Source: Salinicola acroporae
GTDB taxonomy: Bacteria > Pseudomonadota > Gammaproteobacteria > Pseudomonadales > Halomonadaceae
DNA: 64,000 nucleotides
Assembly (NCBI RefSeq): GCF_003206615.1
Contig: NZ_PZJW01000004.1
Location: forward strand, 1 to 64,000
Direction: 5' to 3'
Shown here: one piece after another, positions 57,659-60,097 of the stretch
Position numbering within the stretch: position 1 is the stretch's first letter
Layout of the letters: each line of letters starts with the position of its first letter
Made by a program: the position numbers and the translations under genes
The notes under the pieces: model-generated
Told to the model about the DNA's origin: nothing
Databases searched by the model: none
What the model saw: only the letters and a program-made list of their open reading frames with translations

Positions 57659-58267
57659 TCAGCTCGGGCTGGTGGAAGGGGCGAGCGCCAATAGCCCCGA
57701 GGCCAACTGGCGGAAAGCGTCGGTGGCCCTGTCCAGCACGTCGGCATCGTCGCTGGCGGCGACCCAGAGCGCGGCGTTGAGCGCCGCGCCATTGATCAGC
57801 CGGGCGGCGGCTTCCACGTCCACCGGCTTGACGACTCCTTCCCTGCTCAACGCCTCCAGCGTCGTCATCGTCGCCAGCAGGCAGCGGTTCTGGCTCGGCC
57901 ACTGGGAGGGATCGCCCAGCACCGCCGGGCCATCCAGCAGCACGATGCGCTGGATCTCCGGATCGCGCGCCAGCTCGATGTAGGCGCCGCCCTCCGCCAG
58001 CAGTCCCTCCCAGGCGTTCGCATGGCGCTGCCCGATCTCATGGGCGCGGGCGGCCATCTCGCTATCGAGCCGGTCGACCACGGCGGCGAGCAGACCCCGC
58101 TTGTCACCGAAATGATGATAGAGCGCGCCTCGGGTCAAGCCGGCACGGGCGGTGAGCTCGTCCATCGAGGCACCGGCGTAGCCCTTCTCGGCGAAGGCCG
58201 CTCGCGCGGCATCGATCAACTTGGCGCGGGTCTCTTCCAGCATCTCGGCGCGACGGCGTCGGGCCAT
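57659..58267 (-). CDS. TetR-family repressor
   Basis: The 202-residue protein has an HTH in about residues 15-60 (SMDELTARAGLTRGALYHHFGDK) and a ligand domain of the TetR_C type with a GPAVLGDPSQWPSQNR segment. CAGGAG precedes the ATG at 58267. It is divergent from the Rid-family gene, with three evenly spaced operators in the 175-bp gap. It converges with poxB. Confidence 0.9.
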   Translation of the reverse strand: MARRRRAEMLEETRAKLIDAARAAFAEKGYAGASMDELTARAGLTRGALYHHFGDKRGLLAAVVDRLDSEMAARAHEIGQRHANAWEGLLAEGGAYIELARDPEIQRIVLLDGPAVLGDPSQWPSQNRCLLATMTTLEALSREGVVKPVDVEAAARLINGAALNAALWVAASDDADVLDRATDAFRQLASGLLALAPSTSPS

Positions 58268-58330: not shown

Positions 58331-58395
58331 ACATACGCCGCGTATATTGATTTGACATACGCTTCGTATGTGTCATTAATATACGCTCCGTATGT
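58331..58395. promoter_or_regulatory. three tandem TetR operators at 24-bp spacing
   Basis: Sites at 58331-58347, 58355-58371 and 58379-58395 follow AYATACG-NNN-CGTATRT (17 bp). Their starts are exactly 24 bp apart. They fill the divergent promoter region between the TetR and Rid genes, so several dimers could cover both promoters. Confidence 0.85.
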
Positions 58396-58442
58396 CAATA
58401 TCCTGACGCCCCGCGTGTCACGCTCTCCCAAGGAGTCAAACC

Positions 58443-58963: not shown

Positions 58964-60097
58964 TCAGGATTTTTCCTCGATCATCTTTTCGCGCGCCAGA
59001 CGTGCCTGCTCTTCCTCGTAGGTGGGAAAGTCGACATAGCCTCGGGCATCGCCGCCGTAGAAGGTATCCGGGTCGAACTCGGCAAGCGGCCAGTCGTGCT
59101 GCAGGCGCTCGACCAGGTCCGGGTTGGAGGTGAAGTGGCGACCGAATACCGGCAGATCGATGACACCTTCATCGACCAGCTTCTGCGCTTCCGCTTTGTC
59201 GAGATTGCCGGCGAACAGCAGCGTGCCGCGATAGGCGTCGCGGAACTGACGCAGGAACTCCCGCGGCAGGCCATCCTGCCCCTGGGCGCCCTGGTCCATC
59301 AGGTGGACGTAGGCCAGGCCGCGCTTGCTCAGCTCGGCGGCGAGATAGAGATAGGTCCCCTCGATATCGTCATAGCTCGGCATATCGAACAGGGTGCCGT
59401 AAGGCGTCAGGCGCACGCCGACACGATGCGCGCCGATCAGCGCGATCGAGGCGTCGATCGCCTCGAGCAGCAGCCGGCAACGGTTCTCGCGCGAACCGCC
59501 GTAGTCGTCGGTGCGGTCGTTGAGGCCGGCGTTGATGAACTGCTCGAGCAGGTAGCCGTTGGCCCCGTGCAGTTCGACGCCGTCGAAGCCGGCATTACGC
59601 GCGTTCAGCGCCGCCTGGGCGAAGTCGTCGACGAGCCGGCGGCACTCTTCGGTGGTGGCCGCGCGCGGCGTCGTCGCCGCCAGCATGTCGGGCTGACCGT
59701 CTTCGTTGTAGCCGAACGCCATGCCGCCTTGCTTGGCAGAGCTGCTGATCGGTGCGGCGCCGTTGAGTTGGATCGAGGTGTGCGAGACACGGCCGACGTG
59801 CCAGGTCTGGCAGAAGATGACCCCACCGCGCTCGTGAACGGCCTGGGTCGCTTTCTTCCAGCCGGCGATCTGGTCCGGCCCGTAGATGCCCGGATTGAAC
59901 AGGTAACCCTGGCCCTCGCGGGAGATCGGGCTGCCCTCGGAGATGATCAGCCCGGCACTGGCGCGCTGGCGGTAGTAGAGGGCGCCCATCTCGTCGGGAA
60001 TGTCGCCCTTGGCGCGGGCCCGGGTCATCGGGGCCATGACAATGCGATTGTTGAGGCGCGTACCGGCAAGATCGAACGGTTCGAATAGCGATGTCAT
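58964..60097 (-). CDS. Old Yellow Enzyme family alkene reductase (NemA-like)
   Basis: The 377-residue FMN enzyme has N-terminal NRIVMAPMTRARA, QTWHVGR and the active-site block ELHGANGYLLEQF (His177, Asn180, Tyr182). It reduces activated C=C bonds (N-ethylmaleimide, enones, quinones) with NADPH in the cytosol. Unlike in E. coli, no nemR gene is adjacent. An AGACTTTGGTCC site lies 85 bp upstream on the minus strand and may be its control element. Confidence 0.92.
   Translation of the reverse strand: MTSLFEPFDLAGTRLNNRIVMAPMTRARAKGDIPDEMGALYYRQRASAGLIISEGSPISREGQGYLFNPGIYGPDQIAGWKKATQAVHERGGVIFCQTWHVGRVSHTSIQLNGAAPISSSAKQGGMAFGYNEDGQPDMLAATTPRAATTEECRRLVDDFAQAALNARNAGFDGVELHGANGYLLEQFINAGLNDRTDDYGGSRENRCRLLLEAIDASIALIGAHRVGVRLTPYGTLFDMPSYDDIEGTYLYLAAELSKRGLAYVHLMDQGAQGQDGLPREFLRQFRDAYRGTLLFAGNLDKAEAQKLVDEGVIDLPVFGRHFTSNPDLVERLQHDWPLAEFDPDTFYGGDARGYVDFPTYEEEQARLAREKMIEEKS

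Follow-up and report, generated by a model that had tools for sequence, protein, structure and literature searches.

The closest characterised system to the one described here is DitR-mfsBC of Stenotrophomonas maltophilia. According to the available part of PMC9342713, DitR represses mfsBC via three footprinted boxes and leaves the DNA when diamide oxidises its Cys92 and Cys127. The boxes (IIa, IIb and I) have the form CATAC-N5-GTATG and are each read as the site of one homodimer; the first two are 23 bp apart, and the third lies 31 bp further on by the printed coordinates, assuming the same strand for Box I. The DNase footprint places the middle box between the -35 and -10 elements and the third over +1. 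In a second system, EthR2 (Rv0078) of Mycobacterium tuberculosis, two dimers staggered by 7 bp bind, apparently cooperatively, to one 21-bp operator, which spans both start sites, and both divergent genes are repressed (available part of PMC6016246).

The YjgH/Rid7 subfamily has been described in PMC4433059 and PMC5619798. As far as the available text of PMC4433059 goes, replacement of the catalytic Arg of RidA by Trp is a feature of Rid4 and Rid7, the Salmonella Rid7 has no imine hydrolase activity, and Rid4 to Rid7 are without known function. In the part of the open-access literature covered, outside which most subscription papers lie, we found no paper on TetR control of Rid7/YjgH. Here we analysed a window of 64,000 nucleotides from Salinicola acroporae (contig NZ_PZJW01000004.1, positions 1 to 64,000), in which three 17-bp sites separate a tetR-family gene from a divergent rid7 gene.

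Results

We scanned the window with the 17-bp motif AYATACG-N3-CGTATRT and found three copies with 0 mismatches (S1, S2 and S3; Table 1), with start-to-start steps of 24 bp from S1 to S2 and 24 bp from S2 to S3, as the preliminary description had claimed; its placement of the array between a TetR gene and a Rid-like gene was also correct. With up to three mismatches allowed, the window yielded no additional site; this setting is not significant by itself (3 sites found, with a shuffle mean of 2.25). The core YATACGN3CGTATR occurs 3 times in the window versus 0 times across 100 dinucleotide-preserving shuffles. A motif scan for other targets had been proposed; in the whole genome (4,372,580 bases) S1 to S3 turned out to be the sole 0-mismatch copies, so that no further target with a perfect site was found. 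Near-matches with two mismatches occur at 5 other places in the genome, versus 6 for the reversed control, which is no excess, and the single near-match that was looked at lies within a 208-aa ORF.

Table 1. Features of the divergent tetR-rid7 region, in window coordinates
Feature	Position	Strand	Basis
tetR-family repressor gene, P0001, 202 aa	57659..58267	-	ATG at 58267; TetR_N + TetR_C_41
Cys129 codon, sole Cys of P0001	57881..57883	-	2hyt alignment to DitR Cys127
Putative operator site S1, tetR-proximal, ACATACGCCGCGTATAT	58331..58347		motif scan of window and genome, relatives' loci
Inferred rid7 -35 element TTGACA, overlaps S2 left edge	58352..58357	+	conservation across arrays
Putative operator site S2, middle, ACATACGCTTCGTATGT	58355..58371		motif scan of window and genome, relatives' loci
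Possible rid7 -10 region, S2-S3 linker	58375..58382	+	weak consensus, spacer 17-19, sequence
Putative operator site S3, rid7-proximal, ATATACGCTCCGTATGT	58379..58395		motif scan of window and genome, relatives' loci
Probable rid7 ribosome-binding site AAGGAG	58430..58435	+	sequence
rid7/yjgH gene, P0002, 138 aa	58443..58859	+	similarity to E. coli YjgH

P0001 matches PF00440 (2.3e-17), the TetR_N helix-turn-helix, and PF21351 (1.9e-37), and its first solved relative is 2hyt (8.4e-49), followed by Rv0078/EthR2 (about 1e-20). P0002 shares 76% identity with E. coli YjgH across 123 aa, its top solved match is 1pf5 (YjgH; 3.7e-63), and alignment with E. coli RidA (NWT versus ARS) places a Trp at the position of the catalytic Arg. 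Because of these three features we assign it to Rid7, in the naming of PMC4433059. The small protein that had been described as of unclear function thus has a name, although it belongs to a subfamily without known activity. Immediately 3' of rid7, and convergent with it, lies an Old-yellow-enzyme gene (N-ethylmaleimide reductase-like; 58964-60097, minus strand), which has no perfect operator site nearby.

E. coli yjgH differs from the present locus in its neighbours, bdcA and bdcR. The latter encodes, like the tetR described here, a TetR-family protein, and we considered BdcR as a counterpart of P0001; it was ruled out, as the alignment covers no more than 48 residues, in the DNA-binding part, with 38% identity. 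No ATACG-N3-CGTAT site was present in the E. coli intergenic stretches inspected.

We then surveyed 102 loci of alpha- and gammaproteobacteria, with TetR proteins 62-100% identical to P0001, made up of 20 loci from the family search (a P0001 homologue in 20 of 151 genomes), 2 of the plasmid matches and the best 80 of 587 genome-contig loci. These 80 were chosen by TetR similarity, so the counts hold for close relatives, and two pairs of loci share the same DNA (L019 and L052, L023 and L067), leaving 100 distinct upstream sequences. Rid7 is divergent from TetR at 101 of the 102 loci, the exception being L055, and at least two sites (up to two mismatches) are present at 100, at least three at 78; 80 of the 102 are the best 80 of 587. 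Three sites occur at 76 loci, four at 2, two at 22, one at 1 and none at 1, while dinucleotide shuffles of the same upstream regions (20 rounds) gave 0.05 loci with at least two sites and 0 with three. Given that both the divergent Rid7 and the paired sites are kept at nearly every surveyed locus, the array is, by this comparison, a conserved operator. The preliminary view that such arrays are uncommon for TetR regulators needs qualifying, since members of this TetR branch as a rule have three sites, and DitR is a published three-box precedent.

Two loci have an unusual layout. At L013 (G007) the start codons of TetR and Rid7 abut (CATG), with zero operator sites, and at L022 (G150) the intergenic stretch is 218 bp long, with an apparent second tetR leader and first codons between gene and array. 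We also compared the neighbouring genes at 82 loci, with flanks of 3 kb or 2.5 kb; ORF calling was crude and recovered TetR at 71 of these loci and Rid7 at 52. After the TetR-Rid7 pair, the next largest gene cluster occurred at 4 loci only, so that guilt by association extends no further than the pair. A class-wide search found P0001 homologues in 4 of 369 genomes at 1e-25, the window's included (8 candidates scored per genome); the TetR system is therefore patchy in gammaproteobacteria.

We compared P0001 with DitR (smlt0547) through 2hyt and the published DitR numbering. In this alignment Cys129 of P0001 corresponds to Cys127 of DitR and Gly93 to Cys92; both correspondences assume that the chain index and the native residue numbers are offset by one. 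P0001 is like DitR in that its gene is divergent from the target, in the conserved cysteine at the Cys127 position, and in three boxes of the CATAC-N5-GTATG type, of which the first pair is 24 bp apart (23 in DitR) and the middle one lies at the promoter spacer. It is unlike DitR in that the second redox cysteine, Cys92, is absent and the divergent target is Rid7, not an MFS operon. As it does not have both cysteines, P0001 is, judged by these alignments, a sister of DitR and not DitR itself, and because Cys92 is missing the DitR mechanism cannot be transferred to it as a whole.

Cys129 is kept in 102 of 102 surveyed TetRs (80 of them from the best 80 of 587) and is the only cysteine in 82; among the TetRs of the pattern loci described below the position is Cys in 21 of 22, and Ala in L129. 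It is possible, though somewhat doubtful in our view, that release is caused by a small molecule in the ligand pocket, such as a metabolite that Rid7 handles, and that Cys129 is structural. Rv0078/EthR2, the next solved relative after 2hyt, is a ligand target in the part of the literature available, and one alone of DitR's two redox cysteines is retained. The invariance of Cys129, however, argues against a structural role, as does the requirement for its equivalent in DitR sensing (available part of PMC9342713).

P0001 also falls, by sequence, in the same TetR branch as EthR2/Rv0078-Rv0077c, which is likewise a divergent pair. Their layouts differ: three separate 17-bp sites here versus one 21-bp operator, and another target gene. 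We consider it unlikely that two dimers occupy opposite faces of each 17-bp site in the EthR2 manner, with up to six dimers on the array. The staggered Rv0078 dimers on one operator (available part of PMC6016246) are a precedent, and the flanks are partly palindromic, with TTGACATACG at S2 and CGTATaTcAA at S3; yet the match of P0001 to Rv0078 (about 1e-20) is far weaker than that to 2hyt (8e-49), and the DitR boxes have been interpreted, in the available part of PMC9342713, as binding a single homodimer each.

To obtain spacing statistics, near-copies were removed from 77 three-site arrays, which left 63. S1 and S2 are 23 or 24 bp apart in 60 of these (range 22-26), and a 23-bp S1-S2 distance also occurs in most three-site arrays of the MFS type. 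The S2-S3 distance is 21-34 bp across the 63 arrays, and 24 bp in 7. Since S1-S2 is fixed while S2-S3 is loose, the dimers bound at S1 and S2 would seem to be in contact, and the tight S1-S2 spacing likewise suggests cooperative or stacked binding at the array. Of the 22 loci with two sites, 16 have them 26-30 bp apart and 4 have them 48-51 bp apart, while distances of 23 and 45 bp occur once each; we read 26-30 bp as S2 and S3 having been kept, and 48-51 bp as S2 having become degenerate.

The preliminary description attached importance to the exact 24-bp period. An exact 24/24 spacing is found at the seven closest loci (L005-L011, the window being one of them) and at L064. It is quite unlikely that this period is functional, with evenly spaced dimers forming a filament along the promoter: these loci and the tight S1-S2 distance fit such a model, but across those arrays the S2-S3 distance varies between 21 and 34 bp (Levene p about 2e-7, with rows uncorrected for kinship), so that equal spacing is not needed; only the S1-S2 distance is tight.

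The left edge of S2 overlaps a TTGACA facing rid7. This hexamer is present at the same edge in 60 of the 63 non-redundant arrays, and 96 of the 100 distinct sequences have it somewhere inside the array. All four loci at which S2 is degenerate retain it, so it is not simply operator sequence. The linkers between S2 and S3 resemble a -10 element modestly better than expected across the family (3.43 matches versus 3.12 shuffled, sd 0.10); a sigma-70 consensus scan of the window called no promoter at the array, the window's own -10 being poor. With the -10 in this linker, S3 would overlie the start site. We also considered a leftward tetR promoter starting from S3 (TTGATA) and set it aside, as its -10 support was weak (3.33 versus 3.12, sd 0.09).

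We searched for the sites without reference to the genes. Of 398 genomes from the phylum, 23 contain two copies of ATACG-N3-CGTAT within 6-26 bp of each other; the reversed control gave 0. At 23 of the 23 first pattern loci a P0001 homologue (47-100% identity) adjoins the sites, which rules out a global or unrelated regulator as their reader. Rid7 lies opposite TetR at 12 of these loci and not at 11; further pattern places in G318, G412 and G421 are upstream of Rid7. The divergent ORF is an MFS transporter at 12 of 14 scanned loci that are not of the Rid7 type, the misses being L129 (a 97-aa ORF) and L055. One TetR/MFS region, L110 (G341; 1501-1588), has four operator sites in a row instead of three. 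We built a tree of 58 rows, taking one in three of the 112 Rid7-type rows together with 12 of the MFS type and 8 others. In this tree, in which support is low at several joins and long branches were flagged, neither the Rid7 type nor the MFS type forms one clade.

A converse search for Rid7, blind to TetR and to the sites, located it at 50 places, spread over 48 of the 398 genomes, and we inspected the best 30 of these places. TetR is adjacent and sites are present at 16 of these 30, two or three sites without an adjacent TetR at 5, and neither TetR nor array at 9 (L139, L141, L145-L148, L156, L162 and L163). As these nine loci lack it, and so does E. coli yjgH in the stretches inspected, Rid7 can work without the switch.

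In the five genomes that have sites before Rid7 but no adjacent TetR, the pair is split: the TetR gene is remote from Rid7 and lies beside an MFS transporter gene, and 26 of 26 perfect sites are either at this TetR/MFS locus or upstream of Rid7 (reversed control, 1); hence the sites follow Rid7. G476 has one perfect site 79 bp upstream of Rid7, three at TetR and one elsewhere, the last being a lone operator core (G476:C1:573406-573420) remote from both loci. G526, G237 and G241, which include L147 and L163, have a TetR homologue and Rid7 with no perfect site at Rid7, and in G203 and G270 Rid7 was absent at 1e-30. That the array serves tetR autoregulation alone, rid7 being an unregulated neighbour, is very unlikely: the nine array-free loci among the best 30 of 50, and two loci of the wider family that are not beside Rid7, would suit it, but five genomes carry two or three sites (up to two mismatches) before Rid7 with no TetR gene adjoining, G476 has its perfect site before Rid7, and S2 overlaps the conserved TTGACA that faces rid7.

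Discussion

Sequence comparison directly shows the three sites and how they are conserved, their link to TetR and Rid7 (also in trans), the overlap with the -35 element and the conserved cysteine; from these results we infer how binding, repression, cooperativity and induction may work. We consider it likely that the three sites are operators of a DitR-like sister TetR that represses rid7 and probably tetR, with release probably through Cys129 or a reactive small molecule. The original suggestion that they are operators of the TetR over the divergent promoter is supported, at the level of sequence, by their conservation with the gene pair, their persistence at Rid7 in trans and their match to the DitR boxes.

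In the mechanism we propose, a TetR dimer at S2 would cover the -35 element and spacer of rid7, a dimer at S3 would cover its start site, and a dimer at S1 would sit upstream of the rid7 promoter, over the tetR start region. The dimers at S1 and S2 would touch, as the two sites are almost always 23-24 bp apart whichever gene is the target, and the three dimers would jointly repress rid7 and, probably, tetR. An oxidant or electrophile modifying the single conserved Cys129, or the binding of a reactive small molecule, would probably release the repressor from the DNA, and Rid7 would be induced.

We tentatively suggest that one DitR-like repressor reads triple operators at an MFS exporter and at Rid7, acting in trans in rhizobial genomes and in cis elsewhere. 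This would make Rid7 a part of a thiol/electrophile stress regulon, in which it would clear or buffer reactive compounds of the kind that the exporter expels. If true, this would be the first physiological setting for the functionless Rid7 subfamily; Rid4 to Rid7 were termed mysterious in 2015 (available part of PMC4433059). The geometry of the array, with one spacing tight and one loose, would in addition offer a simple test case for cooperativity between TetR dimers. A dedicated repressor with a single conserved cysteine, kin to a diamide sensor and with a regulon that appears to be shared with an MFS transporter, points to a condition under which the job of Rid7 may be sought. The useful lead is thus the tie of Rid7 to what is probably a thiol-sensing repressor, and to a regulon that in some genomes it would share with an MFS transporter.
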